NCBI GenBank assembly: GCA_037043015.1
Contig: CM073322.1
Location: 7,885,601 to 7,949,600, forward strand
Length of the DNA: 64,000 nt
Source: Bryum argenteum
Lineage: Eukaryota; Streptophyta; Bryopsida; Bryales; Bryaceae
Reading direction: 5' to 3'
Program-made: the position numbers and the translations under genes
Shown: one piece after another, positions 11,993-47,098 of the stretch
Layout: the number at the start of each line of letters is the position of its first letter
Position numbering within the stretch: position 1 is the first letter of the stretch
The notes under the pieces: model-generated
The model's input: the letters and a program-made list of their open reading frames with translations, nothing else
Database searches by the model: none
Told to the model about the DNA's origin: nothing

Positions 11993-12169
11993 GTCAAATG
12001 GACTTAAAGCTTTTAAATGCAGGTTGTCAATTTGACTTAAGACCTTCAGATTACCGAATGTCAATTTGACTATAACCCTCTGTCCATTTGACCACCCGTG
12101 ATACTAAATGCACCCGTGACCATTGTCAATTTGACCAAACCAAAGCCCATAACATGATGTCCAATTGAC
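11993..12169 (+). repeat. six phased GTCNANTNGAC palindromes in D LTR
   Basis: Copies start at 11993, 12026, 12060, 12082, 12125 and 12159. The intervals 33, 34, 22, 43 and 34 are close to whole multiples of 11, so all sites face roughly the same side of the helix. Two further copies lie at 11326 and 11459. In the 3' LTR the equivalent of the 12060 copy has lost its first C (GTT). Confidence 0.8.
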
Positions 12170-12373
12170 CAATGGGTTCACTTAGATATTGAGTGGTTGT
12201 GGAAAGTGATCTAGAGTATCTTGGGTTGAGTTTAAGATCCCAACATTACTATTTATTAACATATGACATTAGTTGCATTAAAACGTTAGACGCATGAAAC
12301 CTTCCATTAAAGATCCCCCACTAGGATTTTATTTGAGATATAATTGTCTTAGATAAAAAACCCTTCTACATTT

Positions 12374-12391
12374 TGGCGCCGCTGCCGGGGA
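12374..12391 (+). other. primer binding site of D (tRNA-Asp type)
   Basis: TGGCGCCGCTGCCGGGGA begins 3 bases after the LTR. From memory it differs by one base from the tRNA-Asp-complementary site common in plant Athila-type elements. Confidence 0.85.
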
Positions 12392-13937: not shown

Positions 13938-14733
13938 TGTTAGCCTGGGTTTCGGGTATGGAGACGGCCGAGGTGTACAGGGAAGGTAAGAACGGGGAAG
14001 GATGTGCGATATCCGGACCTGTGGCTTGTACCCACGGTTGATCCCGGGGTTCAGGGTAAGTAGGCCCGATGTGGCTCGGCCACTGTAATCGGGAATGATT
14101 ACTTCAACCGAGCCAGGTCAACCTTGCGGTGTCGGGGTCCTGGTTTGAACTGCCTGAGGCTCCGGGGGCTGAGTTCCGCGGTGTTGTTTCCTTCGTCCAG
14201 GGTGCCCCGGTCCGTGTGTATGCGCCACTGTACTGAGTCGAGGGAGCTGATACCACTAAGTCGTGCAAACTCACAGCCGGTCTGGAGCACAGATGGTTCT
14301 ATCCAAGGAGTCCACGGTGCCGCGAGTGGTGTGGAAGGAGAAGACGAATCAGCAATCAAGCACAGAAGAGAAGGGTTTAAGTGAGGGTAGACAATAGCAA
14401 TAGCCAGAATGTAGAAAGAGAAGCGAGTCCTGAATTGGTATTGAATCGGTGAATGCCGAGTGGCTACAAGATTGTGTCCGTGGTGTTCGTGGCTATCACG
14501 CTATTCGGGAATCCGGGAATCGCCCCTTCAGTAATTCTACTCGCTACTTATAATAAAACCTAATTCCTCGCGCTGTCTTGTTGCCTTAATGATTCTGCGC
14601 CCGTGGTCTCGATCTTCGTGGTCCCAGTCACTGTGCCTCCGGCCTCGAGCCCCGTGGTCGTCGTTATGCCTTGGTCTCCCCGTGGACCTCCTGGTCGTTG
14701 GTAATGATACCCGCGGCGCCATGGCGGGTAACA
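13938..14733 (-). repeat. 3' LTR of C2 (796 bp)
   Basis: It lies downstream of the minus-strand coding region, so it is the 3' LTR. It is close to the C3 LTR at 61354-62150 (same GGCTCGGCCACTGTAATCGG stretch), closer than to its own partner in places. A TATA-like TTATTATAAG is present in element orientation near 14565. Confidence 0.92.
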
Positions 14734-14779
14734 TTTTGCCCTCCTTTGCAGAGTGCAATCCGTCCTCGGAGTGCTTGGG

Positions 14780-17178: not shown

Positions 17179-17954
17179 GTCTCGCTTCTACCGCACCGAG
17201 GTATCTACACGGAAAAAACTGAGAGACACGGTAGCGAAGTATGCGGAAAGACAGAAAAACAACAAGCTCGAGTACAACGGCGGAGAGAAGGAAATGAGAG
17301 AGCTCCCGGGGAATCCCACGGCTTTTGAGGTCTCACCGGCACGGGAAGGGGGAGTGGGAGTGATTATGGGGCTGGCCGTGGCGGCGCCCCTTTTAACCGA
17401 TAATGTAATGATGCCTCGGGGTCGAATGTGGTGATGGTGCCTCGGGTGGATTCGGGGGGTAATTATGGCACGATTGGCCACTCCCGGGACTATGACTCCC
17501 TGGTTTTTTTTTCATGTGTGACATGTATGTGATTGATGTATGCACATGGTATGGGGATGGGCATGGCCGAGGCGGGGATTGCCCTTGTCTTGCTAAGTCC
17601 TGGGGACTGACGGTGGTGTCTGGCGACGGTGCCTCCCGTGTCCCGAGTCTGTCTTCTAGTGGTCTGTGTGGGTTTTTCGGGGTTTGTGTTTGCCTGCTCG
17701 TGCTTTTCTCCCGGTGTGTTGCCTGGCTTGGCCTCGATGCCTTGATCTGCCGAGTGCCACGGGGTGTGTCCCATGGGTCTTGCGCATGGTTTTGCTTTGT
17801 CGTTTGTGTCAACACTTTTTCTCTTCCCCGTTTTGTGCCTCGGCCGCTAATGTTGTATGGATGTCTTGTAGGGTAATTGTTGTCGTCGTGCGCCGGGGTA
17901 TTGTGGCGTGGTATTGTTTTAGCTTTCTTTGAGTTGACAATCGTGGCATGAGGA

Positions 17955-19049
17955 TCATAGTGGGTCTTTGTTGACGAGGAGTCTTGTGTTGTTAGGCAAT
18001 GCGAGTTGTCTTGTATATGGACCATGCCATATTGATTCGAATTTGGCTCGTTTGAGCTTGGGGTCTCGGGGACACCAAAGTACCTGGTCCCCTTCGGAAT
18101 ACTCGTGGAGGCTACGTCCCTTGGAAATGTCGGGCGACCAAGGTTTGTTTGTGCGGATGTGCTCGTTTCTTTGAGACTCGAATTTCTTCGAGGTGGTGTA
18201 GGTCTCCGAGGCGGGCCCCACTACTCGTGGGTGCGTAATCCCGTGGTCGTAGTGTTTGGAATGTTGGCACGATGTATTCCGTGGGTAGCGGTGGTGCCGT
18301 ACACCATTTCGAATGGGCTGGCATTCGTGGAGGTTTTGATAGCTACACGGTACGCCCACAAATAGCAATGGGTAAGCAATCATCCCATCTGCTTGGTTAG
18401 CGTGCACGAATCTTTTCAACATGTTGATCAAGGTTTTGTTAGTCGATTCACTTGTCCATTACCCCCTGGGGTAATATACCGTGCTAGTTCGGTGCTTGAT
18501 AACGTGGTTGTCAAGGAGGTCTTGTATGATGCGTTCACGAAATGTGTGCCCTGGTCCGATACGATTTCAAGGGACATCCGAACCTGGTGATTATGTTTCG
18601 TAAATGAACGAGGTTTGTGACAACCGCGGTGTTAGTTCGTAGCGGTTTAGCCTCGACCCATTTCGTGGTATAGTCTGTGGCCACGAGGAGGATGTACTTG
18701 TATCCTTGGCGTGTCGGCCGGGCTTGATTGGGCCTACGAAATCTAGTCCCCAGCGTTGGAAGGGACCCAGGGGGGGTATCGATTTTAATGGCACCTTGCC
18801 TTGGTGCTGAAAGTTCGTCGTGGAAATTTGACAGGCGTGGCAATTCTTGACATGCTGGATTACATCCTTGTGCATTGTCGGCCACCAGTATTTGGCTGAG
18901 AGGATCTTCTTTACTGTGGTGTCGGCGCCTTGGTGCCCTCCCGCGGGTCCATTATGGAGGTGAGTAATGATGTGTTGCTGTTGGTTTCTTTGATGCACGC
19001 ACGGCGGATCTCTTGATCCGTCCCCGCTTATATAACTCTCCCGGACCAC
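17955..19049 (-). pseudogene. int: integrase of C2, broken
   Basis: Two minus-strand frames cover the zinc-binding region and catalytic core (18535-19049: [36 protein letters not shown]) and the C-terminal part (17955-18431: a WHGPYTRQL turn). The Glu-containing segment falls near the break at ~18430-18530. It is followed by the degraded linker at 17188-17950. Confidence 0.8.
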
Positions 19050-19079
19050 GGTGTATGGTAGTGTTATGCAGCATAAAGC

Positions 19080-20575
19080 TTATTCGCCGCGTCCCGTGAG
19101 ATCCTTGGGTGTGCTGCCCGTGGTAAGATAACGTATGATGTCGGTCCTCCAGTCCTTCTCAAGTTCCCTCGGTTCCGTGGCGATTTGTGCGGTTTGTATA
19201 TATGCCTCATTGAATGAGTCGTCAATCCCTTCCGCGGTGGTGTTGGTGTCCCTGGATAAGTAATCTGCTATGATGTGTCGTTTCCGGGAACGATATACGA
19301 CCTCAAAATCGTATTCCAGGAGTATCATGATCCATCGAGCAACTCGCCCGCGACCAGGGTTTGATTCACGAGGTACGACAAGCTGTGATGGTCAACCATG
19401 AATCGAAATTTCTTTCCGAGGAGGTAGTGCCGGAATTTTTTGACAGCATAGATCATAGCCAAGGCCTCGCGTTCCGTGGTAGAGTAATTTCGCTCGGCTT
19501 GGTTAAGTAACGGTGGCGTATGCCACGGGTTGATCGTGTTTGCCATTTATGTTTTGAGCTAACATTACTCCCACGGCAATGTTGGATGCGTCCGTGTGGA
19601 CGTGGAAAGGTTTAGTCCAATCTGGGGCAATGAGGATGGGTGCGTTTGAGTATGCATGCTTTATCTTTTCTAAGGCTGCGCATGCCTCGGTGTCCAATCC
19701 CGGGATAGGCATACTTGCATGGTTCGGGTCGCGATCGGGGCGGTAATGTGAGCTAGCTTTTCGATGTAGATGCGATTGAACTGGGCCAGTCCCAAGAGTC
19801 GTTGAACTCCTTTCTGATTGACTGGCGGTGTCATTTCTAGGATATCCTTAATCTTCTCGGGGTCGGGGAGCTTGCCATGTTTGCATACGATGTAGCCGAG
19901 AATTACTCCTGCGAAGTACAAGAACATACATTTATCCGCGTTGAGGCTTACCCCGTTGGCTCGGCATGCGTGGAAGATTTGTCTGAGGTGCGCAACGTGG
20001 TCTTTCATTTTCCCGTAAACCGTCCCATCGTCCAGATAGATTCGGAAGAACCGCTTGAGGTATGGCCTGAAGATGAGTTCCATGACTTGTTGGAATGTCA
20101 TTGGTGCATTTTTGGCCCCGAACGGCATCCGCTCAAACTGGTATGGTCCCCATTCCGTAGAAAAAGCTGTTTTCCCTTTGTCCTGTTCCGCCATGGCTAC
20201 TTGATAGTAGCCTGAAAAGCAATCCAGGAATGAGTACATCTCATGCCCGGCTACTTCATCGATGATTTCCTCCATGTAAGGTAAGGGGTAATGATCCTTT
20301 TTCGTTGCGGCGTTGAGTTTCCTGAAGTCCACACAGATACGTAGCGTGCCATTCTTCTTGGGGATAATAACCATGGGTGAGAGCCATGGTGCGGCATCCA
20401 CGGGTGATATGAACTTGGCCTGGAGTAGTTTGTCTAGTTCGGCCTTGACCCGAACGGCGTAGTTTGGGTTCATCCCGTAGCGCGTTCTTCTTTGTGCGGA
20501 GTTGCCCTGGGACGAGATCGATTGTGTGCTTCGGCCAAGGCGTTGGGGATACCCCTTAGATCCTCGTGGTTCCAT
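19080..20575 (-). pseudogene. pol: reverse transcriptase and RNase H of C2, broken
   Basis: RT spans 19670-20575 in one frame with SPMVIIPKKNG, CVDFRKLN, SFLDCFSGYYQV, MPFGAKNAP and IYLDDGTVYG, the same YLDD variant as C1. RNase H follows in two further frames to 19080 (HTDASNIAVG; TEREALAMIY; FMVDHHSL; ADYLSRD). The site matching the C1 MITE, near 20640, is uninterrupted here. Confidence 0.88.
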
Positions 20576-20951
20576 GCAAATATGTCCTGGTATTCGTGGA
20601 AATGGCGATGGCCGCTTGTTTGATGGCCGGGTGCGTCGGTATTAATTTTAATATACTTGGGCTCCTCTCTGTACCGAGGTTAACCAACACTCGCTCCTTG
20701 GCGCCCCGTGTGTCACCCGTGACAATTTCGTGGTGTAACGCCTGTCTTTGCGGGGACGAGATTTACCACTACTTCCTCGGCAACTTCCCGTGTGAAATGG
20801 TCGGGTATGTCCAATTTTTCTTCTTCTTGAGCCAAGTCACTAAATGGATTTCTGCCACGGGTATTAAGTTTGGGTGGACGTGGAGTACGAGGGCTTCATG
20901 TTCATTGGAGAGTTCTTCCGGCCGATCTGTTCGGCCGAGGTCCCGATCGAT

Positions 20952-21372
20952 TCATCTTGGCACGGGTAAGGCGGCTATCCACGGAATAACCACGGTCCGT
21001 CCCTGGCGTTGGATGTGAATCGATTTTTGGTCCAATCGTGAATAGCCTCGCATGTCTCGCAACCAAGGTCTCCCCAGGATGACGGGAAAACCACTGTTGT
21101 GGGGCATCTCAATTATTACAAAGGTTGCCGGTGTTGATACTCCGTGTATGGTTATCCCTACCATAGTGAGGATTCCCAGGGGTGTGACGGGGGCGTCGTT
21201 AGCCATGCGTAGAATAAAACGAGCGCGCCTCGGGGTTGAGGCAATCCTAATGCTTGTCGTGCGTGGTTGCTCATCACGTTTACACCGGATCCTCCATCAA
21301 CGAGGACATTGGTTAATGTTTGTCCCCAAGTCGGACATGTATTACCGCAAAGATCGGGGTCCATTGTTGTAG
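20952..21372 (-). pseudogene. pro: aspartic protease region of C2
   Basis: Two overlapping frames: VDGGSGVNVMSN near 21270-21300 (active site) and a later LGRPWLRDM near 21050-21080. A frameshift near 21200 separates them. Sequence follows C1 closely. Confidence 0.75.
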
Positions 21373-21581
21373 CATTAACCTCTATGAACGCAGGATCTGG
21401 TTTGGCCTCGGTACCCCGGTCCGTTGCAAGTATTGTTGCAATTCAGGGGCTGATTTGTACTAATTTTGCTAAGGTAATTGTGACGTTGGTCGTGTTTAGT
21501 ATCTGTTGAAGGGTGTGGTCCGTGGCATGCCCTTGGTCCGTGTTCACCGTTTCCGGTCCCCTTTGCGGCTTCGTCCTCATG

Positions 21582-23054
21582 TTATGCGGCCGTTCCCGAT
21601 GATTTTCGGAAATGGCTTCCGGTGTTCCACGACGTGGTTTGGGGGTTCGCCTTTGCCCTCGTGGTTCTGCGGAGGTGGATATCGTGGAAACGGTAGTCCC
21701 CGGGCCGTGTACCTCGGTAAGTGTTACCCCTCCCCTCCCGGAGCCGCGGTGTTTGCGTTTGTTGGTCCCGAGGGTGGTTGGTTCTGTTTTGTGTCCATTT
21801 TTGCTTTAATACAGGACATTGGCTCCGTCGGTGGTCCAGGCCTCCGCACTCCCAGCATGCATCCGCCCGGCCGGGTTGGAAAGCATCTACATTGACCTCC
21901 TCGGGGTATACCGCGGCCATGGTGTTCCTGGGTCGCCGGTGATCTTGGACTGGAGGTGTATTGTTTGCGTACCAGCACCTCCCGTGGTGTGTCTTTCCAC
22001 ATGTTTCGCATGATGGAGGTGTTATTCTGGCATCTTGCCGTGTCGTGGGTAGGGGTAACAGGGGAGTTTGCGTTTGTTTTAAGGCTGTGAGTTCGCGGCT
22101 GATGTCGTTGGCCGCGGAAAGGATATCTGGTAATGTTTTCACGCCACGGATAACAATGCCTTGTTGTATCCAAGGAAGCAATCCCTTCTTAAACCATTCG
22201 CACATGTATTCTTCCTCGGGTCGTTGGCTTAATTTGTCTGCCAGTTGCTTAAATCTATCATAGAACTTGTCCACAGGCTCGTTTGTGGATTGAGTGATTG
22301 ATCCCAACGCTCGAAGGACCTCCGAGCTCGTTTTTAATTTTCTAAATTTGTGTAAAAAACTACGCTCCATATCCTCCCAACTGGCATTGTTGTGTTCGGA
22401 CTCAAAATCAATGTACCAGTTGATGTGATTCCCTTGGAGCGTGGTCCCGAAAATATTTTGTAAGTCCGTGGCATGAACAATGCCGTTCGTGCGTGCTATC
22501 ACCTTGAACCTCCCGATGTGCCAATCCGGATCTCCGGACTCGTCAAATACGGGGTAGGGGATCTTGGGTAGTTTCGCCTGGTGTCAAGGTTCCCGAGGCG
22601 CGATGATGACACGAGGGAATCCCCGTGGAGTCTCGCTACTACTGCTGGTGATGGCATTCCCGAGGTGCTAGAACTCGCCGCGGCATTGTTTCCGCGAGGT
22701 ATGGTTGCCGATCGTACGACTTCTTCCGGTCCTCCTCCCCACTCCTTGGCGTGGATGCAATGGCCTCGGGGTTAGTGTTGCCCCGAATCTCGCGGTATTT
22801 CAAGTGAGTAATTCCAGCTTGGCGTTGGTGGCCTCGTTTTGAGCGGCGAGATCTGTCATTTGTTGCTTCATCCATTGTAATAATTCCCTGGTTTCATCTT
22901 CCTGTTGCACTATTTCCTCCATATCCGCAACTACGTTTTCCACGGCTTTTTCCGCGGCGTGTCGTTTTGGAGGCATTTTCCTCCTGCGCAGCTCGTGAGC
23001 CCGATCTCTCTCTTTCTCTCTCTTTTTTTTTTTTTTTTTTTTTTTACTCGGCAT
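21582..23054 (-). pseudogene. gag: gag of C2, broken
   Basis: A start at 23054 gives MPSKKKKK..., a poly-Lys N-terminus encoded by an A-run of about 20 bases, then a basic and coiled-coil segment to ~22800. After a frame break the capsid domain runs 22502-21700 (FGTTLQGNHINWYIDF; WEDMERSFLHKFRK). Two knuckles follow: CETCGKTHHGRC and CWECGGLDHRRSQC. The homopolymer right after the start codon is prone to slippage and to sequence error. Confidence 0.8.
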
Positions 23055-23059
23055 TCCAT

Positions 23060-23077
23060 CCCCAAAGATGGTCGCCA
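23060..23077 (-). other. primer binding site of C2
   Basis: On the minus strand, 3 bases inside the 5' LTR, it reads TGGCGACCATCTTTGGGG. TGGCGAC...GGGG resembles the tRNA-Arg-type site of Tat/Ogre elements rather than the tRNA-Asp type used by A, B and D. Confidence 0.6.
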
Positions 23078-23080
23078 AAA

Positions 23081-23875
23081 TGTTAGCCTGGGTTTCGGTA
23101 TGGAGACGGCCGAGGTGTACGAGGAAAGGTAAGAACGGGGAAGGATGTGCGATATCCGGACTGTGGCTTGTACCCGGTTGATCCCCGGGGTTCGGGGTAA
23201 GTAGGCCCGATGTGGCTCGCCACCACATGTCGGGAATGATTACTTCAACCGAGCCAGGTCAACCTTGCGGTGTCGGGGTCCTGGTTTGAACTGCCTGAGG
23301 CTCCGGGGGCTGAGTTCCGCGGTGTTGTTTCCTTCGTCCAGGGTGCCCCGGTCCGTGTGTATGCGCCACTGTACTGAGTCGAGGGAGCTGATACCACTAA
23401 GTCGTGCAAACTCACAGCCGGTCTGGAGCACAGATGGTTCTATCCAAGGAGTCCACGGTGCCGCGAGTGGTGTGGAAGGAGAAGACGAATCAAAGAATCA
23501 AGCACGAGAGAGAAGGGTTTAAGTGAGGGTAGACAATAGCAATAGCAGAATGTAGAAAGAGAAGCGAGTCCTGAATTGGTATTGAATCGGTGAATGCCGA
23601 GTGGCTACAAGATTGTGTCCGTGGTGTTCGTGGCTATCACGCTATTCAGGGAATCCAGGAACTGCCCTTACTGTAATTCTACTCGCTACTTATAATAAAA
23701 CCTAATTCCTCGCGCTGTCTTGTTGCCTTAATGATTCTGCGCCCGTGGTCTCGATCTTCGTGGTCCCTGTCACTGTGCCTCCGGCCTCGAGCCCCGTGGT
23801 CGTCGTTATGCCTTGGTCTCCCCGTGGACCTCCTGGTCGTTGGTAATGATACCCGCGGCGCCATGGCGGGTAACA
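23081..23875 (-). repeat. 5' LTR of C2 (795 bp)
   Basis: Same ends as the 13938 LTR, directly followed by the second TTCTC. It precedes the primer site on the minus strand, so it is the 5' LTR. Confidence 0.92.
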
Positions 23876-23880: not shown

Positions 23881-24827
23881 CTACTTTAAGTACTGATTCC
23901 TCTTTAAGGAGTGGAAACAATACTTCAAGAACGTCATCTTCAAGTTCAAGTTCTGGAAGTAACTTAAATAATCCACTCCCATTATATACAAACCCATTGG
24001 TAGGCCAAGTAACAATGGCTCAGCAAAGAGTCTTAAATGTGGCTCCATATCCATTGTTTCATGGAATAATTGGGACAGATCCAGATAGACATGTAGACAG
24101 ATTTTTAATAGTAGCTAGGGCAAATCAACTACCAGAACCCCTATATTTAACTACATTCCCGAGTACTCTAATTGACATAGCCGGTGATTGGTACTCCCAA
24201 TTACCTGCTGCCCCAGCCACATGGGATGAATTACGCGATAATTTCCTAAGAAGATTTAGACCTCGATCGTTTGTACCTGGTCTAATTGATAGGATAAGAA
24301 ACATTAAAATGGGAATGAATGAGGGAATAGATTCTTACTATACGCGTATGAACACACTCTTAAGGAGATGGCAAGGGCATCATATGCCAGATGATTTCTT
24401 GGTAAGCACCTTTATTGGAGGTGTATACCCAGAAACGTTACGAATTTATTTAAGGGAGCAGAACCCTGGAGATGTTGCAACTGCTTATACATTAGCTAAA
24501 ACTTGGGAGGAAGCTAGGGTCAATCATGATTATGTCCAAATTGAGGACCCATCCTTGTACCCACCAACTAGACATCACCCAAGTCATTTATATGGAGTTG
24601 ATCCACAAGGAAAGGATATATATTCTAGGGGGGGTGAGGAACTCTTAAGATTAGAGGCTCCACCTCCAATATATAATCCCAAACCCTTGGCGATAAAACC
24701 TCCAACAATGGATCCGGTAACAGATCCTATTTCAAAATTAGAAAGGAAATTAAATGATCTTACAATTAGGTTCACCCAAGCTAGAGAGAAACGTCCTAAG
24801 TCTTCAAATCAAAGGACTAATATGTAG
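23881..24827 (+). CDS. gag: gag of D, capsid part, ends at an amber codon
   Basis: Continues the frame of 13454-13937. A Ser-rich linker leads into a capsid-like domain (FHGIIGTDPDRHVDRFLIVA; PATWDELRDNFLRRFRP; MPDDFLVSTFIGGVYPETLR). This matches the retrotransposon gag family pattern, including W-x-x-L...F-x-x-R-F. The frame stops at TAG 24825-24827, immediately before the first zinc knuckle, which continues in the same frame. Function: forms the virus-like particle. Confidence 0.88.
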
Positions 24828-25514
24828 TGTACTCACTGTAAAGGACATGGGCATTTAGCCCATGAATGTCCCTCACCTACCGTAGGAAATATTAGTTTTG
24901 ACATTAAATGTCAATTATGTGGTGGTAACCACTCAACTGAGAGGTGTTGGAATTTGGGAAAGGCTGTAGCCGCAATAAGTGAGATGCAAAATAATAACAA
25001 TAGAAACCCCCAAACCAATAATATCAAACCTCCTTACAATGTTACCTCAAAACGTCCGTTCACCCGTCCTAACAACGGACTCCCTTATAAACCGGGAGAC
25101 GGTGGGGCAAGGTGGAATAACGCCTCTACCAGTTGGAATGGACCATCATCCAACATTAACCCTCGGAAGTCAGGGATGAACAATAGAGGTAGAACTTTGG
25201 AGTGTTACAATTGCGGGCAACTAGGACATTTTGCAAGAGATTGTCCTGCACCTAAGAAAGAAACAGGATACGATTTGTTTTGTAGACGATGTAAGAAACC
25301 TGGCCATTTGGCTGAGGATTGTCGAGCACCGGAACCGGTTAAACAAGTGCAATTCTCAAACCCTGAAAAAATTCAAGAGGTCAATTGTGTTTTAAGGACA
25401 ACCAATTTCTTTGATGATAAGGATTGTCAAGTAGTCACTAGGTCCAAAGCACGGGAGAGAGGAATTAATCTTGAATCCAATCAAGAAAGTAGTTCGTTCG
25501 ACAATCGATTATAG
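24828..25514 (+). CDS. gag: nucleocapsid part of D gag, four zinc knuckles, after the amber
   Basis: In frame with the capsid segment across TAG. Knuckles: [27 protein letters not shown] (one residue shorter), [14 protein letters not shown] and [14 protein letters not shown]. The first pair and second pair are separated by ~80 Asn/Pro-rich residues. The frame ends at 25514. Pol continues in the +1 frame and overlaps by about 75 bases (open from 25435). Function: RNA binding and packaging. Confidence 0.82.
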
Positions 25515-27957
25515 AAAACCGGTTAAGAGACAATTATCTACCCCTAAAGAATGGACGGAATTAAAAGGCAATCAAATCATTAATGAGCCCTTGGTACCAA
25601 ATACTACACCCAAAACCGTAGACGAACTTAACAATACACATGTACCACCTATTATAGAAACACCTCGAGATGTCAATTTAGACAAGTCTAATATAAATGA
25701 AAATTTGCCTAAGGAAGATCCATTGAAAGTGTTAAATCAAGAGCAAATGGCTCCCTTAACACAACCATCATTCTACAAACCACCTAGGAAAATAATTAAG
25801 AAAACTATAAGAGAAATTCTCCCTACCACAAAAAGAGAAAAACATAATAGAATCATGAATCTTATGGTAGGAATGAACCCTTATAACATCCTTACAAATA
25901 TGGATAGTATTCAACCTCAAATATCCTTAAGGCAATTATTGGCCGTTTCCCCCCAATGTAGGAGCGAACTTAGCTCCTCGTTGGTTAAGAAACGTCCAAA
26001 AATAGTCGAGGTACATGATATTTCTATAGATCCTGGTGCACCAACCATAGACATTTTTATAGATGGGACTTTGATTGAAAATGCTCAAATTGACGGTGGG
26101 TCTAGTGTAAATTTAATGAATCTAGATACTATGGAGGAGTTAGGCTTACAAACCATGACTACTACTCCTATAATTTTAAGAATGGCCGACCAACGAAGGG
26201 TTAAACCCTTGGGAGTGCTTAAACAAATTCTTACAATGATAGGAGGGTTGAACTATAAAATTGACTATATAGTCTTTAAAATTAGTGAACCTATCGCCGC
26301 CTATCCGGTACTTTTGGGTCGACCTTGGTTGTATTTAGCAAAAGCTAGGGATGATTGGGGTAAAGGCACAATAACCTTAGGCAGGGGAAAAGACAAAATT
26401 ACAATACCTATGTACCCATCCAAATACCACGGGGAAACTCAAGAGGAAAACTCTGAGTACACGACGGGTAGCATAGAAGAAGATGAAACCACAAATCAAG
26501 TGGGTAAAGAGGAAACCATAGTTAAAACCTTAAGACCGGGAGAATATTACAACCCTTTAAACGGGGAGGATTCAGATGCAGCTATATTAGCATGGCAGAA
26601 TTCTCCGGTTTATACGGTTAAGGTTGAGGAGGAATCTGAGGAGGAACCCCCTTACTTAACCGATTCAGAGGAATTATTAGACAATATGTCTCATAGTGTG
26701 TTAAAAAATTTAAAATCACCCAAAAGTATTTGTATTGACATGGAACTTGGAACACCCGAAAATTCAAAAACCATAAGGATTTATGAAAACTTAAGCCCAA
26801 AAGAAAGGGATCAATGGTTTAAATTTTTCAAAAAGTATCAAACTGCATTTGCATGGACATATAAGGACTTGAAAGGGATCCCTGCACATGTTTGTCAACA
26901 CCGCATAATCCTAGAACCTGACACTAAACCTGTGCGTCAAAGACAATACAGGATGAACCCCAAATATTCATTACTAGTTAAGGAAGAAATTGACAAATTA
27001 TTAGAATGTGGGTTTATTTATTCTGTACCATATAGCGAATGGGTTTCTCCCATCGTCGTTGTACCAAAAAAGAATGGGAAATTAAGGATATGTCAGGATT
27101 TTAGAAAGTTAAACAGTGTAACTCGGAAAGATTATTTTCCCTTACCTTTTACAGATGCAATATTAGATGCAGTAGCTGGGCATGAATGTTACTCTTTTTT
27201 AGATGGATTTTCGGGGTATAATCAGGTTCAAATTGCCCCAGAAGATAGACCTTTAACAACTTTTACAACTGATTGGGGCACATTTGCCTATAACGTCATG
27301 CCGTTTGGTTTGTGCAATGCCCCTGCTACATTCCAACGGGTTATGACTATAGCATTTCAAAAATATATGCGAAAATTTATTGAAATATTTTTAGATGATT
27401 TTTGTGTTTTTAGCACAAAGGAAGAACATGGGGAGTGTTTAAGAAAATGTTTTGAGCAATGCCAAGAATATGGCATTTCTATAAACGCGGCTAAATCCGA
27501 ATTTATAGTACCTTATGGACGTCTTGTAGGACATATAGTGTCTAAAGATGGTATTGCTGTAGACCCAGATAAGGTTAAGGCAATATTAGCAATTGAAATT
27601 CCAAAAAATATTACCGATGTTAAGTCATTTTTGGGAGGTACGGGCTACTATCGCCGCCATATTTATTTCTTTGCTCAAATAGCACACCCGTTGACTCATT
27701 TAACCAAACAAACAGAAATGCCGGGAGTCTGGACGGAGGAGTGCACTAAAGCTTTTAATAAACTTAAGAAAAGGCTTACTACAGCCCCCGTACTAATTCC
27801 CCCTGATTGGAATAAAATATTTGAAGTCTATGTGGATGCCTCAAATGTGGCCATTGGTAGTGTGCTAAGTCAAAAAGATGATAAGGGTCGTGATAGACCA
27901 ATTTATTTTGCTAGCGTGCAATTGAGTGCGGTGAAAAAGGAATTATTCTGTGACTGA
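25471..27957 (+). CDS. pol: pol of D: protease, reverse transcriptase, start of RNase H
   Basis: Protease active site [11 protein letters not shown] near 26090-26120, then LLGRPWLY near 26310. RT covers roughly 26870-27560: [68 protein letters not shown], and the catalytic box IFLDDFCVF (FLDD) near 27390. RNase H begins with [12 protein letters not shown] one-base frame change near 27940, in an A-run, ends the frame at 27957 while coding continues at 27950. No ATG suits the start. Expression by +1 frameshift from gag, or a separate start, is possible. Confidence 0.92.
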
Positions 27958-29512
27958 ACGAGAGGGCTTAGGGATGATTTACTCAGTTCAAAAGTATAGA
28001 CATTATTTATTGGGATATAAATTTAATTTTTATGTTGATCATGATGCTCTTAAGTATATGATTAATAAACCTCAACTTAGTGGGAGAATAGCACGTTGGG
28101 TATTGCTATTACAAGAATTTGATTTTACAATTAATGTTAGACCGGGAAGACAACATGGTAATGCGGATTTTTTGTCTAGAATAAGTAAAGAAGTAAATCC
28201 CGAGCCTATAGATGATAGCTTTCCCGATGCGCATATTTTTAACGTTGACATTATTCCATTGGAATATGCCGATGTTATTCATTATTTGACCACTAACACT
28301 TTTCCTTTAGACTATAACGAAAAGCAGAAGCAAAACTTAGCTTATAAAGCTCAACCTTATACAATAATTGCTAAGGTTCTGTATAAGCAAGGCAAAGACG
28401 GAATCTTAAGAAGATGTGTGAATCCTAGTGAAGTACCATTGGTCTTAAAAGCGTGTCATGATGACGGTTGTGGGGGCCATTTCGCAGGAATGGTAACCGC
28501 ACAAAAAGTCTTAAGGGCCGGGTATTGGTGGCCCACCTTGTTCTCAGATGCCGCAATTCATGCTCGAAAATGTGATGCGTGTCAAAGAGTAGGCAAACCA
28601 ACACCAACCAAAGCCATGCCCTTAAACCCAATTCTAGCCCAAGTACCTTTTGAGAAGTGGGGTATAGACTTTGTAGGCCCAATTAAACCCCCTAGCCGTT
28701 ATGGCCAAAAACGATATATTCTTGTAGCTACGGAATATGTCACAAAATGGGCAGAGGCCATCCCCACTAAAAAGGATGATGCAGAAACCGTAGCCAAATT
28801 CTTGTATGAAAATATAATAACTCGCTTTGGTTGTCCAAAAGAATTGGTGAGTGATAGAGGTACACATTTCATGAATAAAACTATAGAAGAGTTGACTACA
28901 AAATATCTTATAAAACATAGACCATCTACACCTTATCACCCCCAGACTAATGGACAAACCGAGAAAACTAACGGCATTTTGTGTAAGATTATCACAAAAA
29001 CTGTACAAGGGTCAACTACGGACTGGGATAGTCGTGTATTAGACGCACTTTGGGCTTATAGGACTGCCTATAAAGTTACTCTTAAGGACACACCGTTCAA
29101 TTTGGTCTATGGTCAAGAAGCCATACTCCCTATTGAATTAGAATTGCCGTCCTTAAGAATTGCCATAGAAGAAAGACTAGGAGACCAGGATTCTTTAAAG
29201 CAAAGATATATAATGCTAGAAAAATTGGATGAATCAAGGGCTCAAGCATATTTAAATATGCTAGCCATACAAAAACATAGAAAATCGTACTATGATAGTA
29301 AACTTGGGACAAAGGAATTAAAAGAAAATGATTTGGTTTTACTTTATGATAGTAGATTCCAAAAATTTCCGGGAAAATTTAAAATGAGATGGTTTGGCCC
29401 ATATAGAGTCTTAAAAAGCTATCCAAATGGTTCAGTTGAAATTCAGGACTTTGCAGGAAACGTTCATCAAACGCGTTATAATGGTCATCGTCTAAAACTA
29501 TACATAACTTGA
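27950..29512 (+). CDS. pol: pol of D: rest of RNase H and integrase
   Basis: Begins in the RNase [13 protein letters not shown] motif, then FYVDHDALKY and an ADFLSR motif. Integrase zinc region: HDDGCGGHFAG and CDACQR. Core: WGIDFVGPIK with ATEYVTKWAEA, VSDRGTHFMN, and Glu in PQTNGQTEKTNG. C-terminal domain has MRWFGPYRVLKSYPNGSVEI near 29385-29445 and no chromodomain. Ends with a short basic tail at TGA 29510-29512. Complete apart from the frame break at its start. Confidence 0.92.
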   Translation: MTEREGLGMIYSVQKYRHYLLGYKFNFYVDHDALKYMINKPQLSGRIARWVLLLQEFDFTINVRPGRQHGNADFLSRISKEVNPEPIDDSFPDAHIFNVDIIPLEYADVIHYLTTNTFPLDYNEKQKQNLAYKAQPYTIIAKVLYKQGKDGILRRCVNPSEVPLVLKACHDDGCGGHFAGMVTAQKVLRAGYWWPTLFSDAAIHARKCDACQRVGKPTPTKAMPLNPILAQVPFEKWGIDFVGPIKPPSRYGQKRYILVATEYVTKWAEAIPTKKDDAETVAKFLYENIITRFGCPKELVSDRGTHFMNKTIEELTTKYLIKHRPSTPYHPQTNGQTEKTNGILCKIITKTVQGSTTDWDSRVLDALWAYRTAYKVTLKDTPFNLVYGQEAILPIELELPSLRIAIEERLGDQDSLKQRYIMLEKLDESRAQAYLNMLAIQKHRKSYYDSKLGTKELKENDLVLLYDSRFQKFPGKFKMRWFGPYRVLKSYPNGSVEIQDFAGNVHQTRYNGHRLKLYIT

Positions 29513-31493
29513 GGACAAGTTATATTTTAAAGAGGGGGGCTAATGAATAACAAATTTAAAATCATGAAAAATCTAAGTTACTTAACCCCAAACATTAAAA
29601 TATCTTAAATTAAACTCTTTAAATTTTAGTCAAATCGACGTATAAGTAAAGTAATCAATGATGCATTAATTATAGCAAAGTCAATCGGATAGCAAGAAAA
29701 GTTAGAGCAAGTGGAATCATTATGTTAGAACCTTCTTTATAAAAGTAATTATAAAGTGTTTCTGAAGTGATTTGAAGTAAACAGAAGTCAAGCCATGATG
29801 AACTTTATAGTACAAAGAAAGTTTTAACCCCAAGGAAAATAGATGTAATTATGGGATTAACTAGAAGAAGTAGCATAATCTCTTATAAGGACAAATTTAG
29901 AATTTAGACTTATAAAGAGAGTGGGCAATAAATAAGTAATAAACCAAGGAAACGTAAAAAACAAGAAAGATCTTCCAATTTTAGACACCAAATAGTCCTA
30001 ACTAAGAAAAGGATTAGGGATACCCACTACTTTTAAGTCTTAATTATCTAAATTTTGTGAATATTTCAAACATTCTAAAATATTAGAATATTAAACCTTG
30101 ACTAACAAAGTAAGTTAGAAAATAAAAACTCTAGATTTTGTCTACAAAGACTTAATTATTAAAAAAAAGGATATTGTCAAATAGACTTAACACAAATGAT
30201 TAAAAATAATAATAAAAATACAAATGGTCAAATCAACAAAGTAATCATGATAAGTATACTGGTGGCCGGTCAAATTGACTAACTGGAGTTAGTGGGGTCG
30301 AATAGACTGGCAGTTACGGCGTCATGCGCCGCCACCAAATGATCATGATTTCATGACCTTGTTAAAACCACCTCCTTCTTGAGTCTCCCGCCCTCACTGC
30401 GCATTCAGTTTGAGTCTTCCGCTCCTTCCACTCCTTCGTGTTTTCGATCCTTTATGTGTTTCGGGTGGTTGTCTGTGTTGACTCGCGCGGCCTGCTAAGT
30501 GTCAAGTGGACACGCGCTGCTGCTGAGTGGGAGTACTCGCAAAACGAACAGGAGGTCGAGTCGACTGGAGCAGGGAGTCAAGTCGACCAGGGCGAGGAGA
30601 ACAAGGTTTGCTCGCTGCATGTGAGTGGCGTGACATAGAAGGTAAGTTTTCCAGAAAGAAAGCTGATGTCTTGATGCGAGAAGCAAAGTTTCGGAAGTCG
30701 AATAGACTCTGAATGAAATTGTAAAGAACGAAGAGCGAAGGAATTAGGTCAAATAAACAGTGTGTTATACGGTGAAAAAATTGTGTTCGTTGTGAACGTC
30801 AAATGGACTGTGCTGTAATAGGAAGGTCGAAGGTGTAAGTAAGAAGAAACTGTCAAATGGACCTAATTAGAGGATAATGCATGTGAGATCATGAATTGGT
30901 GTCAAATGGATGAAAAAAGGTCTACATGTTTGTGTTGATTATTGTAAAATAAGAGGTCAAATGGACAAAAGAAATCAAAGAACCGAGGCTGTTGTATGCT
31001 GATGAATGTCAAATTGACAAATAAAATGCATGAACGTGGAATTGACAAGGAGGAGTCCATTTGACCTAAGTAATGGAGTAATATACATGCCTAACTAACT
31101 TTTGTGCAATGGATTGGCAGTTGTTTTTCTTTCAAATTTTCAAGTAACACTTCTGAATTTTCACAATGTCGAGAGTAGCTGTAAAACAAGAAAATAATAC
31201 CACAGGTAAGTAAGGAAAGAATACACCAATCTCAAAGTCTAATTGACAATGAAAGTTTGAATGAATGAGCTGTTGTAAAAGACCAATTGACCATGTGTAG
31301 GATGTCGAACGACATGATCCAATTAGGCTGAAGTCCAGTTGACAAGCAATGTGTGTATTGTATGAGTCTAATTCACATACTGATTGAATGAGGAATGTTC
31401 GAAAACGAATCTAATAGACAATCGAAATGGATAAAGATGCTAAAAATCGTGTCAAATTGACAGAAGATATCAAATCGAATTAAGGAGGTCAAA
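29513..31493 (+). other. noncoding spacer of D, start of the palindrome field
   Basis: Two kilobases after integrase with no convincing ORF. The first 650 bp are very AT-rich. From 29629, and densely from 30176, the 11-bp palindrome GTCNANTNGAC recurs. A splice or internal-promoter role for this spacer is possible because the accessory ORF starts at its end, but no clear signal was identified. Confidence 0.6.
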
Positions 31494-32597
31494 TTGACAC
31501 GGATAAGGATGAGCACTTGTCAAGTAGACAAACCACCTAACAAAATGTTTGCTCCTGTGTCTAATCGACTACAAACAGGAGAAGCGGGAGGACAGGGCAG
31601 CATGGCACCTGTATTAAAAATTGAGAAGGCACCGACCTTCTCCTTTTCACCAGAAGGCTGGGTCTACATCGAATCGAACAAGGAGAATCTGATCGATGCA
31701 GGGCTATGGAACTTTCTTCATGAGACACTTCCAGAGATGGATTCGCAGCTGGTGAGCGAATTCATCAAAAATTCGTACTATGGAGCTTCAGAAGAAGTCA
31801 CGGTGCGAGGGAAAAATGTTCGGTTCACACCAGAGGTAGTTGCTGAGAAGCTCGGGCTGCAAGGGACAGGACTCACATTGGGAGGAGTCAACAAGTTGAC
31901 TAACAAGAAGGTAGCTGAAATTTTCGGGAAGAATCCGAAAGGTGGTGCGAATTATGTGATCTCAAAAGCAAAAGGTTTCTGGAAGGAGTGGCTCCACTAC
32001 ATGAACCAGAAGATTCTCATGGCGCTGAACGGAGTAGAGGTGATTGAAGAGCATGGTTTGTCAGCGGCCATCATGGCGTGGGAAGGCAAGGAGCTGAACT
32101 GGGGTCGCATCATCTGGAACCAGACAAGGGTCGAGTTGAATCGGAAGCGGACGAGAAATCCTTTGATCCTGTTCAGTGGAGTATATATCTCGGAGGTGTG
32201 CCAACTATGCATGAGTCCGATTCCAACTGTGAGGCAGATCGACACTGGAAGGAGGAGCGGTCGAATAGACCCAGCAACACCAGTACCAGCGAGCACCACC
32301 GCAACGACAAGCGCTCCATCTGGGTCAATTAGACGAAGTCAAGTGGCCGCACCAACAACTGTTACACCTCTGAGTCAGACCGAGTCTATTAGACGAGGAA
32401 AGCGGGTGCGAGATGCAGAAGAGCAGGAAGAGGACGTCTCAGAGGAAGTAATGAGAGAACCGCAAACTGCTCGAGGATTCGCCAATGCATTAGCCTTATC
32501 CCTGTCTGCCGCACCAGTTCAACTTCAGATTCCGGACAATTTGACCAAGCAACAACTTGTATGCGAGTGGGCAGCCGAGCCAAAGAAGGAAGGGTGA
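31494..32597 (+). CDS. accessory ORF of D, plant-transposon-protein-like domain
   Basis: About 367 codons. After a polar N-terminus, residues ~50-230 show the layout of the 'putative plant transposon protein' family: LVSEFIKNSYYGASEEVTVR with NVRFTPEVVAEKLGL, then a helical stretch and GKELNWGRIIWNQ near 32087-32125. The C-terminal third is Arg/Ser/Thr-rich and acidic (likely disordered). Most plant relatives sit next to gypsy pol genes; their function is not established. The frame may continue after a shift into 32561-32758. The segment carries eight copies of the 11-bp palindrome. An ATG at 31506 or 31545 may be a better start than 31494. Confidence 0.65.
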   Translation: MTRIRMSTCQVDKPPNKMFAPVSNRLQTGEAGGQGSMAPVLKIEKAPTFSFSPEGWVYIESNKENLIDAGLWNFLHETLPEMDSQLVSEFIKNSYYGASEEVTVRGKNVRFTPEVVAEKLGLQGTGLTLGGVNKLTNKKVAEIFGKNPKGGANYVISKAKGFWKEWLHYMNQKILMALNGVEVIEEHGLSAAIMAWEGKELNWGRIIWNQTRVELNRKRTRNPLILFSGVYISEVCQLCMSPIPTVRQIDTGRRSGRIDPATPVPASTTATTSAPSGSIRRSQVAAPTTVTPLSQTESIRRGKRVRDAEEQEEDVSEEVMREPQTARGFANALALSLSAAPVQLQIPDNLTKQQLVCEWAAEPKKEG

Positions 32598-32758
32598 TGC
32601 AAGAGCTCCAAGAAGTATTGGGAAGAGAGATCCGGATGAAGCTACAAATCAAGAAGTTGGAGGGCGATGTCAATGTATGGAAAGGAAATGCGGCCCGAGA
32701 GAAAGCGGAACTTGACCAGGCTCACGGTGGAGAAGGTCGAATTGACATCATTGAATGA
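32561..32758 (+). CDS. coiled-coil segment following the D accessory ORF
   Basis: An overlapping frame of 65 codons (MQELQEVLGREIRMKLQIKK) with clear heptads. It is probably the frameshifted continuation of 31494-32597, because C carries a coiled coil in the same place after its related domain. Ends at TGA 32756-32758. Its last residues are encoded by a palindrome copy (32736). Confidence 0.45.
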   Translation: MRVGSRAKEGRVMQELQEVLGREIRMKLQIKKLEGDVNVWKGNAAREKAELDQAHGGEGRIDIIE

Positions 32759-32979
32759 TCAACTCATTCAAGCGACGCGAAAACGGCCGAAAACAAGGTC
32801 AAGTCGACAATGGAACAAGAAGGGAGCGATCCACCATGACCGATGAGTCGGGGCCGTCAAGTGGACCATTGTTGACCTTTTACAGTCCAAATGAAGGAGA
32901 AGGAGGATGATAACGTCATCTTGGCCCGGATTTAGCTTGCTCGAAACAAGAATGTATCGCTTTAAAGAAACAAACAATT

Positions 32980-33843
32980 ATGTGGTCGAGTCGACTCAAA
33001 CCACCCCGCCACATGATATTTCCACCATGGCGGATAGAGCAATACAAAGAACGAGGAGGTGGAGACATGGAAGGCGAAGCGGACAAGCTAAGGGAGGAGA
33101 ATAACCACCTAAGTGTCGAGGTGACTATTCTAATGAGTCGATTGGACCAGCTCGTCACGGCAATGTGGGAGCAAGAAGCTAGAGCACCACCGAGCTTCTC
33201 TCTGTTCCGAGCTTACGAGCTCCAACGTTCAATCCTCTTGTCTATGTACAATCTGCAGATCCGAAGTCAAATAGACGGAGAGGCTTTCCTCCGAATCTGG
33301 AATAGGGCAAGTCGATTTTCGAACCAACAGAATTTGTTGTGTGAGATGCTGGCAAGACAAGACTTGGAGCTGACGGAGCCGAGGCAATTCCTTATACCAA
33401 TTGGGCACTTGGGAGCAAGAGTGCTGGCATATTACTTAGCACTCGAGGAGCAGCAACAAGTTAAGCGTCGACTCGACAAGACACCTGAGGAGGTCCGATT
33501 GGTGCGAGTTGGAGATAGCACAGATGAGCTGCAAAGGCTCACACAGATCCATGGCATGGGAGGTTTTGAGAGATGGCACGCCATACTCTGTATGATGAAG
33601 GGTCAACTCAACGATCGAGTAGAGATCCAGAGGAAAATAGCTGTGGTACTGGAACGAGAAGCGGTAGCACTGCGTGGAGAATTTTCGGCTGGGACATATG
33701 TGTATGCTATGGCCACCATTTATAGTGAGATTCAGGCGTCGCTAAAGGGACTCGGAGAGGGTCGATTGGACATAGCACCCCTGCCAAGCCAAGTCAAATT
33801 GACAACACCGCCAAAGAATATTCAAAGCCACCGAAGTGGGTGA
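32980..33843 (+). CDS. second 3' ORF of D, 287 aa, unrecognised
   Basis: A helical, Leu/Glu/Arg-rich product with a coiled-coil start (DKLREENNHLSVEVTILMSR) and a central segment (FSLFRAYELQRSILLSMYNL; YYLALEEQQQVKRRLDK). No family recognised. ATG choice is uncertain (32980 or 33067, the latter MEGEADKL). The next ORF overlaps its stop by 4 bases. Five palindrome copies are embedded. Confidence 0.45.
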   Translation: MWSSRLKPPRHMIFPPWRIEQYKERGGGDMEGEADKLREENNHLSVEVTILMSRLDQLVTAMWEQEARAPPSFSLFRAYELQRSILLSMYNLQIRSQIDGEAFLRIWNRASRFSNQQNLLCEMLARQDLELTEPRQFLIPIGHLGARVLAYYLALEEQQQVKRRLDKTPEEVRLVRVGDSTDELQRLTQIHGMGGFERWHAILCMMKGQLNDRVEIQRKIAVVLEREAVALRGEFSAGTYVYAMATIYSEIQASLKGLGEGRLDIAPLPSQVKLTTPPKNIQSHRSG

Positions 33844-34337
33844 GTCTACGATCCATGGTGACAGGCTCTGAGTTGAAGAAGCGATACCTTGGAAATTACG
33901 AGAGTCTATTTGACAATCCATCGGAGCAACCAGTGCCATCCTGGAAGGCCATTGAATGGTTGTTGGAGGATTATGGGCTCTCGAGAGTAGAAAAGCGCGC
34001 CTGGGACTTGGTATACAAAGAAATGGGGCGATTTGGAGCCCTGGTCGATTGGACTATAGATCCTCCACCAGCAGTTTCTACCAACGCACACTGCGTGATG
34101 AACGCGAGGAGGAACAAATGGCCAAGGGAGGCCACCATCGACTCCATCGAATACAACTGGCCAGTGATACCAGGTCAATTTGACAAGCCAGAGGCGTGTG
34201 CGGATGCGTACAAGAGGTTTTTCGAGCAGCACAAGAGCCACACCGACCCTGTGTGCTTTCGAGCAGCTGTGTTTTGTAATTTTCTAAGTATCTTTGTCAA
34301 GGGATTATGGTGTGCAGATCGATGTGAACAGGTTTGA
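33840..34337 (+). CDS. third 3' ORF of D, 165 aa, unrecognised, likely a continuation
   Basis: The open frame overlaps the end of the previous ORF and lacks a strong ATG start (first ATG at 33855). It is mixed and soluble (WKAIEWLLEDYGLSRVEKRA). A shift or short intron near 34280-34320 would join it to 34294-34638. Taken together, 32980-34638 looks like one ~550-codon gene broken twice. Confidence 0.4.
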   Translation: MSLRSMVTGSELKKRYLGNYESLFDNPSEQPVPSWKAIEWLLEDYGLSRVEKRAWDLVYKEMGRFGALVDWTIDPPPAVSTNAHCVMNARRNKWPREATIDSIEYNWPVIPGQFDKPEACADAYKRFFEQHKSHTDPVCFRAAVFCNFLSIFVKGLWCADRCEQV

Positions 34338-34638
34338 AGAGCTTAAGCCGGAGTTTCAGCTCTCCCTGAAGTTGCAGTATCGATGCACCAGGTGGAACCG
34401 AATGATAGAAGTGATGGCAAGTACGCATTTCCTTCACGGTGCTCATGGCTGCTTCATCAATGAGTTCAATGGAACGAGGAAAATTGCAATTGACAAATGG
34501 CTATCGGCGCAACGCAAGAACGACACGAAGTTGTTGCTGGACGATGATGTGCGCAAGGCAGTCGACCGTCTGGAGGCAGAGGAGTACAGGAGGGAGCTGC
34601 TTAACAAGGATAGGTACCGAAATTGGCTTGCACGATGA
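34294..34638 (+). CDS. fourth 3' ORF of D, 114 aa, unrecognised
   Basis: Overlaps the previous frame by 44 bases. Basic, helical C-terminus (DDVRKAVDRLEAEEYRRELL). Ends at TGA 34636-34638. Best read as the C-terminal part of the broken gene described above. Confidence 0.4.
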   Translation: MSRDYGVQIDVNRFEELKPEFQLSLKLQYRCTRWNRMIEVMASTHFLHGAHGCFINEFNGTRKIAIDKWLSAQRKNDTKLLLDDDVRKAVDRLEAEEYRRELLNKDRYRNWLAR

Positions 34639-35873
34639 AGTATGGGTCAATTTGACGTCAGTAATGTTCCGGTTGTACATAGGCTGTCGTAGGCATTTAG
34701 TGTGAGGTCGAGTAGACAGTTATTGAACATTCTCCCTCAGCACATTGCCTTGTTATATTCACTTTCACTTTTCAGTATACTCTCTTTCTCAGCATATAAG
34801 TCGTGTCGAGTAGACACCGTGTCAAACAATCAAATGCATAAGTACCTTTTACCAAAAACACTTGTTTCTCTTTTCAGTTTTAATGCAATTCCATCCATGG
34901 GAAAAGCTTTCTGAAATCTTTGTATTACACATTTTTTCTTGTGTTGGAGTGTAGGTTGAGGTCAAATAGACAGGATCAGCACATTCTCTCTCAATGCATT
35001 GCCTTGTTCATATTCGTCTTGTGTTTACTTTGCAATGAATAATGGACTTTGAGTTGAGTTAGAGAATGGAAAATGAAATTTCATCAAGGTCAATTAGACT
35101 AAGTAACATAGGTTCAGAAAGAGTCTGTTTTAGGAATCTGAAGAGTAAAGAACTCGGAGTCAATTTGACAGAGAGTATAAACAACAGAAAGTCAATTAGA
35201 CAGGGAATGTCAAGTATGAATGAATACCACAAGGAGTAATAAACTCGAGCCAATAAGATGGAGAGTTTAAGTTTCTATCAAGTCCATTAGACTGTGTTAA
35301 GTGGTTTAGGAGATAGAAAGTAAGGCGAGAATGTGTCGAGTAGACAGGAAGCTTGAGTAAGAAGCAAGTATGAAAATAGACGGGTCAAGTAGACTGTAAA
35401 CCAGAGAGTGTGAGTACAATTGAGTCGAATTGACTAAGAGAAACAGGAGGAAAGATTGCTCAGTTCCGGAGGCATAATAAAGAGTTGTAAATCAGTCAAG
35501 TAGACAGAGAAAAATGGTTCCAACAACTTGTACAAAATAATTCAAGGATTCAGTTACGTCTTAAATGTTCAAATACTTAGTTGAATTCTGAAGAGAGAAA
35601 GGGAGAATTCTCAAGAAAAGTCAAGTAAACTTGGAAACTCCAATTGAAAAAGTTTCACTCAGCAGATCTAAAACCTTCAAAGAAAGAGTTTTTAATAGGT
35701 CAATTAGACTGACCAAAGGCTTGATAAGGAAGTCATGTAACATTTTAAAGTCAGATAGACTCAACCAATTCTTAAGCAAGAGGGAAAAGTTTAAGGCTAC
35801 GTCTAATAGAATTTCTTAATGTTCCTAAGTTGAGTTTCTTATGTCCAATCAAAAAGTCAAAAGTAATAAAGAA

Positions 35874-37131: not shown

Positions 37132-37145
37132 AAAGAAGGGGGCTA
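37132..37145 (+). other. polypurine tract of D
   Basis: AAAGAAGGGGGCTA immediately precedes the 3' LTR. Canonical plus-strand primer location. Confidence 0.85.
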
Positions 37146-38736
37146 TGTGATGAGAAAAGAGCTTTAATTAGGCTCAAATGTCCAATAGAATGTAAAAAGG
37201 GTTATAATTAGATAAGACAAATAGACAAGATAGGAAATAATAGGACAAAATGGTTTTAGAAATAGAAAGGTGGATCTCAAAAGGTCTACATATGTACCTT
37301 TTCGTCTTAAGAGAGATAAAAGGTGTGGGAAGACAAGACATTCTTGTCTACACCCTTCTCTCCGTGTATTCCACTTAGAACAATTTTAATTCATTAATAC
37401 ACTTTACATTTCAAGCTTTAAGATTGTTCATAGTTGTTTAAAGTGTAAGTGTAAATCTCATTACTCCGGGAGTAATAAGAAGGCGAGTGCCGGAAGCGGA
37501 CTTCAACAAAGAGCCATTGAAGCAAGAGGCTTCAATTGTGCCGGGAAGCGAAATCCAACAAAGAAGAGCAATTGAAGCAAGAGGCTTCAATTGGCGAATT
37601 CAACACTTAATTGTGTAAAGCATTTCTAATTGTTATTGAATTATTAATATACTTGTCAACTTGATGGAATGCTTGTGTGAGTATGTAGAATTGTCTAATT
37701 GACATGCATAAATTGTCAATTGTATGAATAACTTGGTATTGAATGTGTAATGGCATTCATATGTGGAAGTTGATTCGAATAGACAATAGAACATAGTATG
37801 AAGAGAAACGGTTGATATAGAATAAGTCGATTAGACTGGAGAAACCACTTGGACATGAAAGGTCAAGTGTAAGGAGTCTATTGGTCGCTAATATTAAAGT
37901 GCACATTTAGTGAAAGGAGAATCAAAATCCTTCACTATATAATTGTTATTCTTAAGATTAGAGAAGAGTCTAATCTTAAGAAAAAGGGATGCTTGGAAGC
38001 ATTGCCGTTGTAATAGATCTTCTAAGGAGTAGAAGATAAGGTTGGCCAACACCATTAAGCATTATTGAAGTCTAGCTAGCTTCAGATAGTGAAATAAGCA
38101 TATGCAATAAAAGATATTCTTAAGAGGGTCCCTAATTTTCTCAAAGATTAATAGTGTAAGGATTGATCAACCTCATATTATTATCTTATATATATTTGAC
38201 CCCTACTAATAAGAAATACTATCTTAAGAATGCTTTGCAGATAGGACATGGAATGATGAAGATAGAAGCGATTTGAGGAACAAATAGGGAAGGACTAAAG
38301 CAGATCTTGATAAGTCCTCTAACCTTAAGACTTATTGAATTGGAAGAGTGAGATGATAGTCAAATGGACTTAAAGCTTTTAAATGCAGGTTGTCAATTTG
38401 ACTTAAGACCTTCAGATTACCGAATGTTAATTTGACTATAACCCTCTGTCCATTTGACCACCCGTGATACTAAATGCACCCGTGACCATTGTCAATTTGA
38501 CCAAACCAAAGCCCATAACATGATGTCCAATTGACCAATGGGTTCACTTAGATATTGAGTGGTTGTGGAAAGTGATCTAGAGTATCTTGGGTTGAGTTTA
38601 AGATCCCAACATTACTATTTATTAACATATGACATTAGTTGCATTAAAACGTTAGACGCATGAAACCTTCCATTAAAGATCCCCCACTAGGATTTTATTT
38701 GAGATATAATTGTCTTAGATAAAAAACCCTTCTACA
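37146..38736 (+). repeat. 3' LTR of element D (1591 bp)
   Basis: Same length and ends as 10780-12370 with about three differences, followed by ATTCT at 38737-38741. Repeats the hairpins (14-bp stem near 37949-37982) and all but one of the palindrome copies. Confidence 0.96.
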
Positions 38737-38754
38737 ATTCTTCTGGGGGCCATC

Positions 38755-47070: not shown

Positions 47071-47080
47071 CGATTACTTT

Positions 47081-47098
47081 TGGCGCCACGCCGGGATC
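47081..47098 (+). other. primer binding site of B
   Basis: TGGCGCCACGCCGGGATC starts 10 bases after the LTR. Homologous to the better-preserved site of A (60431). tRNA-Asp type with decay, or sequence errors, in the GCCGCCGGGG part. Confidence 0.65.

Follow-up and report, generated by a model that had tools for sequence, protein, structure and literature searches.

The window analysed here is the whole 64,000-nucleotide (nt) stretch of the Bryum argenteum assembly GCA_037043015.1 at positions 7,885,601–7,949,600 of contig CM073322.1. It contains a long terminal repeat (LTR) retrotransposon, D, which is of Ty3/gypsy type by its domain order of reverse transcriptase, RNase H and integrase. Its interval from pol to the 3′ LTR holds the pieces of an accessory gene and a dense field of the palindrome GTCNANTNGAC (Table 1). 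The two LTRs are 99.75% identical over 1,595 aligned columns, and the element is bounded by a 5-bp target-site duplication, ATTCT (10775–10779 and 38737–38741). The ‘giant retrotransposon’ of the original prediction, which was made from the letters alone, spans ~28 kb, but ~10 kb of it is a nested element with TTCTC at each end, and D proper measures 18.0 kb. D is probably Athila-like. Its primer-binding site is of tRNA-Asp type; such a site and a long 3′ region are Athila traits, and D also shares with Athila-type elements a 1.6-kb LTR, RNase H and a sense open reading frame (ORF) after pol.

The field holds 47 exact sites, with starts spanning 29629–35699, where first- to third-order Markov models of the region (200 runs each) gave means of 0.1, 0.175 and 0.25 and maxima of 1, 4 and 3, bearing out the earlier claim of a count far above a chance expectation of about 0.1. 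One-mismatch forms, described there as many, were indeed in excess (17 versus 2.4 simulated), but two-mismatch forms were no commoner than simulated (25 versus 28), so the excess is essentially one of exact sites. All 62 exact sites in the window fall inside D: 47 in the field, eight in the 5′ LTR (six of them at 11993–12169, near its 3′ end) and seven in the 3′ LTR. Sites thus also lie outside the 3′ third of the element, where the field had been placed. The other elements of the window lack such a run, as stated. Pol was correctly described as free of the motif: there were no exact sites in pol of D, and none in ~3 kb of pol at each of 30 integrase-bearing loci. The spacing of the sites is irregular and, as had been noted, they fall in each of the three frames of the accessory-gene pieces.

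Across the genome, single GTCNANTNGAC sites numbered 3572, versus 1848 for the reversed pattern, and pairs 15–45 bp apart numbered 280 versus 7. Among the 50 pair places listed, of 280 counted, 47 had a D-family integrase, LTR or accessory-gene match no more than 2.5 kb away, in keeping with the expectation that density would peak only in D-family elements. The other three were at C1:231055, C1:2534959 and C1:6720711 (G000); the first two share an identical 37-bp stretch, and so probably belong to some other repeat. Neither altering the half-site to GAC...GTC (6 versus 20) nor deleting the centre base (2 versus 28) gave a pattern enriched in pairs, which indicates that half-site and spacing are both specific.

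Selection maintains the palindrome as a DNA word. Two diverged copies, copy B (L016 with L070) and copy A (L018 with L069), were compared with the window copy (W) and with each other; 3′ of the integrase, their DNA alignments to the window showed 55% and 54% identity, respectively. Because the motif itself may steer DNA alignments between copies this diverged, the argument is carried by protein-anchored counts, limited to sites within aligned codons and with gapped sites dropped (two for W–B, one for W–A, three for B–A). All eight fixed bases were kept at 6/10 (W–B), 7/11 (W–A) and 5/8 (A–B) sites, compared with 42/2325, 65/2432 and 50/2551 other 11-mers keeping the equivalent bases (Fisher p 1e-8, 4e-9 and 2e-7), while N bases at the kept sites differed at 4/18, 8/21 and 4/15 positions. 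Within the conserved C domain alone, sites were kept in 3/3 versus 26/749 and 3/3 versus 51/763 cases. The eight fixed positions are thus conserved between diverged copies, the point on which the original prediction had staked itself. Fixed bases also changed less than background in all five LTR pairs compared; in three of the pairs N bases, too, changed more than fixed bases did (differences at fixed, N and background positions: 3/64, 1/24 and 125/1500 in pair 1; 4/64, 1/24 and 175/1443 in pair 2; 8/56, 4/21 and 304/1389 in pair 3; 4/64, 7/24 and 361/1430 in pair 4; 1/32, 2/12 and 375/1478 in pair 5). Near-identical copies showed no significant difference (8/112 versus 150/1273, p 0.16) and the window compared with L017 showed little (4/10 versus 329/1224), so the evidence for selection comes mainly from diverged copies.

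The integrases of L013 and L016 are 98% and 93% identical to that of the window, whereas the region 3′ of the integrase is far more diverged, as is the LTR of the L016 element (72%): the 3′ region evolves or recombines much faster than pol.

The palindrome is clade-specific: in a sister clade, whose elements have an accessory gene of the same kind, another palindrome with related half-sites is used. An integrase search gave 40 matches, of which 30 were taken as loci. In the 1.5 kb after the integrase, 4–15 GTCNANTNGAC sites were present in 10/11 copies of clade I, compared with 0/19 other loci. Over the same interval, 6/8 copies of clade II had one to four exact sites of GACTATAGTC and two to four with one mismatch (shuffles of four such copies gave 0.00 and ~0.04), and clade-I copies had no GACTATAGTC within one mismatch. 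Each of these related groups of elements thus has its own motif, GTCNANTNGAC in clade I and GACTATAGTC in clade II. In the exceptional clade-I copy (L015), homology to its kin extends only ~304 bp past the integrase and a field lies ~32 kb further on, adjoining an accessory-gene match; in L036, an exact GACTATAGTC lies 13 kb on, again adjoining such a match, and in L038 a GACTATAGTC-type pair lies 2.7 kb on. Insertions may account for L015 and L036.

Genome-wide, GACTATAGTC occurred 360 times, versus 138 for its reverse. For 32 of the 40 distinct places listed for GACYATAGTC pairs, a clade-II integrase lay no more than 10 kb upstream (expected share 0.085%). None of the 40 followed one of the 18 other listed integrases, and eight were near neither kind. 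Mapped onto the integrase tree, motif labels required 6 changes versus 15.4 when shuffled, an outcome that near-copies favour. The half-sites, GTCNA in clade I and GACTA in clade II, have the common form G-T/A-C-N-A, which may reflect common descent of the two palindromes.

There is tentatively a third palindrome, ACAANTTGT, after the integrase in three further copies (L026, L029 and L032), with 2, 3 and 4 exact and 7, 6 and 4 one-mismatch sites, respectively (shuffled ~0.05 and 1.4). It occurred 13607 times in the genome versus 6671 reversed, and one element has five exact sites within 3.3 kb. For a fourth clade of eight copies (L020–L025, L027 and L037), a de novo palindrome scan of the 1.5 kb, with eight shuffles per locus and half-sites of only A and T left out, gave nothing above shuffles.

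Table 1. Features of element D in the window.
Feature	Position	Strand	Basis or remark
5′ LTR	10780..12370	+	8 motif sites; self-comparison
Primer-binding site TGGCGCCGCTGCCGGGG	12374..12390	+	sequence
Nested element with own LTRs, separate from D	13938..23875	.	self-comparison
gag capsid (Retrotrans_gag) and zinc knuckles	23997..25514	+	Pfam
pol: protease-like, reverse transcriptase, RNase H, integrase	25471..29512	+	Pfam; 0 motif sites
Motif field, 47 exact GTCNANTNGAC sites	29629..35709	.	counted, simulated
Accessory gene piece 1, open frame; N domain and start of middle part	31461..32597	+	
N domain of accessory protein, 202 residues	31602..32207	+	predicted globular, pLDDT (predicted local distance difference test) 94.8
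Accessory gene piece 2, different frame	32914..33843	+	
Accessory gene piece 3, conserved C domain	33729..34337	+	
Accessory gene piece 4, end of C domain	34288..34638	+	
Polypurine tract, 5′ of 3′ LTR	37132..37142	+	sequence
3′ LTR	37146..38736	+	7 motif sites

Several other repeats and frames were seen in the window. A 19-bp tandem repeat of 7.7 copies (36319–36464) lies between the motif field and the 3′ LTR. The palindrome TCTTAAGA occurs five times in 9001–12000 and seven times in 36001–39000, each bin overlapping a D LTR, and CCGGN11CCGG occurs six times in 45001–48000 and seven times in 57001–60000, bins that contain a 97% identical repeat. An open frame of 1258 amino acids (4077–7853, +) has integrase domains only in its first ~210 residues, the rest giving no Pfam match at E 0.001, and a DUF7869 protein of 401 amino acids is encoded at 39931–41136 (−).

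What had been taken for separate accessory ORFs are rather fragments of one gene, which is broken in the window copy but uninterrupted, as one open frame, in some related copies. For its product, a globular N domain and a conserved C domain are predicted, together with a long coiled coil. PF20167 (Transposase_32) matched the window's N-domain piece at E 2e-4 and 21.6 bits, under the curated cut-off of 45, and matched 4/37 homologues at E up to 0.01 (best 2.9e-5, 24.5 bits). By hydropathy, a transmembrane segment like those of plant retroelement env-like products was absent from copy A and five homologues (peak 19-residue values 1.25 and 1.31–1.58, where 1.6 is the usual threshold). By sequence, the copy-A protein had no similar solved structure and the window N domain matched two, both irrelevant; among the 60 listed of 196 profile matches, the best stretches fell at profile positions 217–501, in the coiled coil. 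The viral contigs searched encoded no relative. A single weak fold match hints at a relation of the accessory protein to the VANC anti-silencing protein.

We see about an even chance that the field serves as an array of sites bound by a dimeric, sequence-specific DNA-binding protein, most likely the accessory protein of the same family. That protein would bind its own family's sites, both in the LTR and between pol and the 3′ LTR; from its predicted architecture we infer that it pairs through the coiled coil to give a dimeric binder. By a further step of analogy, binding might counter silencing or activate transcription, as VANC does for VANDAL. The window copy, its accessory gene being broken, would rely on intact copies elsewhere in the genome.

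The VANC/VANDAL system offers the nearest mechanism, although VANDALs are Mu-like DNA transposons and D is an LTR retrotransposon with gag, reverse transcriptase, RNase H and integrase. Likenesses to the system, as described in the accounts cited, are dense short motifs within the element, a motif that differs between related families and one accessory gene per family (Hosaka et al. 2017, PMC5735166; Sasaki et al. 2023, PMC10398659). Unpublished structural work on VANC with its target DNA, presented at a 2025 meeting, is reported to suggest coevolution (PMC12859917). Two points weigh against the parallel: the VANC-fold match was not returned in a structure search with the window's own domain, and the VANC motifs are described as lying in tandem repeats of noncoding DNA (PMC5735166, PMC10398659), whereas D sites are non-tandem and partly coding. 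The VANC-like system originally proposed is partly supported: it gains from the clade-specific pair of motifs and the one structural match, and loses on these counts.

The nearest described anatomy is that of the RM boxes of Sireviruses, family-specific palindromes reported at 8–32 copies per element (Bousios et al. 2010, PMC2829016). According to that account, they lie in LTRs and, where an ENV-like gene is present, also in the stretch from pol to the 3′ LTR, mostly upstream of ENV; versions differ between elements and, with a single exception, the palindromes are built on a CGG-CCG core and make up CpG islands (PMC2829016). D-family palindromes are likewise family-specific and placed in LTRs and between pol and the 3′ LTR. 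Unlike Sireviruses, which are Ty1/copia elements, D is of Ty3/gypsy type; the half-sites differ, the fixed bases of GTCNANTNGAC containing neither CGG nor CCG, and D sites run through the accessory gene, whose product has no predicted membrane segment. In Retand elements, the ORFs are described as mainly antisense and TRP28 (PF04195), with tandem repeats in about half of elements (PMC11963269), whereas the D gene is sense, has no PF04195 match and is accompanied by dispersed palindromes. Among the titles and abstract openings listed from an open-access library that covers few subscription papers and preprints, none reported a palindrome field for Athila-like elements.

A host transcription factor might bind the sites, the element having gathered them as enhancers or stress-response sites, and Sirevirus palindromes have been discussed in that sense (PMC2829016). 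We think this unlikely. Sister families share one nucleus, so a host factor would have to account for their different words, and a single factor does not explain two palindromes in sister clades of one genome; moreover, dense sites are a property of D-family elements. W-box cores (GTCAA or TTGAC), rightly foreseen in some forms only, occurred at 32/47 field, 20/30 copy B and 5/15 copy A sites, and their absence from 15/47, 10/30 and 10/15 led us to reject a W-box/WRKY site as the common denominator. Coiled-coil proteins can bridge sites, and the accessory protein could instead serve another step of the life cycle, such as nuclear retention of cDNA, guidance of integration, or compaction or insulation. 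The same anatomy, with sites through the coding region and both LTRs, would fit, but little speaks for it above anti-silencing; the sole structural hint, weak as it is, points to an anti-silencing protein, and we regard such a role as similarly unlikely.

That the motif works at the RNA level, forming small hairpins that serve packaging or translation, is very improbable. Such hairpins would suit the polarity of the sites: an orientation bias had been noted and is real (position 4 against the complement of position 8, p = 7e-4), with position 4 a purine and C nearly absent from the centre in the window copy (1/47) and copy B (0/30), but it is uneven, centre C being frequent in copy A (4/15). 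Hairpins were rejected because complementarity was at chance level, both in the flanks and between positions 4 and 8 (12/47 versus 12.1 expected); the complementary A5/T7 beside the centre, furthermore, could not pair in a hairpin. A neutral field, produced by repeat expansion or mutation, is scarcely credible, even though many sites with one common consensus might suggest it. Tandem arrays in 29500–37200 were confined to 35863–36486, outside the field, and a tandem-repeat origin was rejected; columns flanking the sites have no common sequence, and altered patterns are not enriched. The conservation pattern, with fixed bases outlasting other DNA in diverged copies, already contradicts neutrality.

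Within the reading of the field as binding sites for the family's own protein, a more far-reaching version is doubtful though not far-fetched: that the accessory protein is a sequence-specific anti-silencing factor of VANC fold, which evolved in, or was captured by, Ty3/gypsy LTR retrotransposons and coevolved with palindrome fields clade by clade, giving one genome separate, mutually blind escape systems.

LTR retrotransposons make up a large part of plant genomes, and if the accessory protein binds the sites, they would include elements with a system of self-recognition like that of VANDAL transposons. In sunflower and Arabidopsis, a 2026 study found distinct methylation patterns among Athila subgroups but did not settle whether such ORFs are encoded by Athila elements, or whether the ORFs shape methylation (PMC12844716). 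With two palindromes and two groups of accessory genes, that question may become testable with defined sites and proteins.
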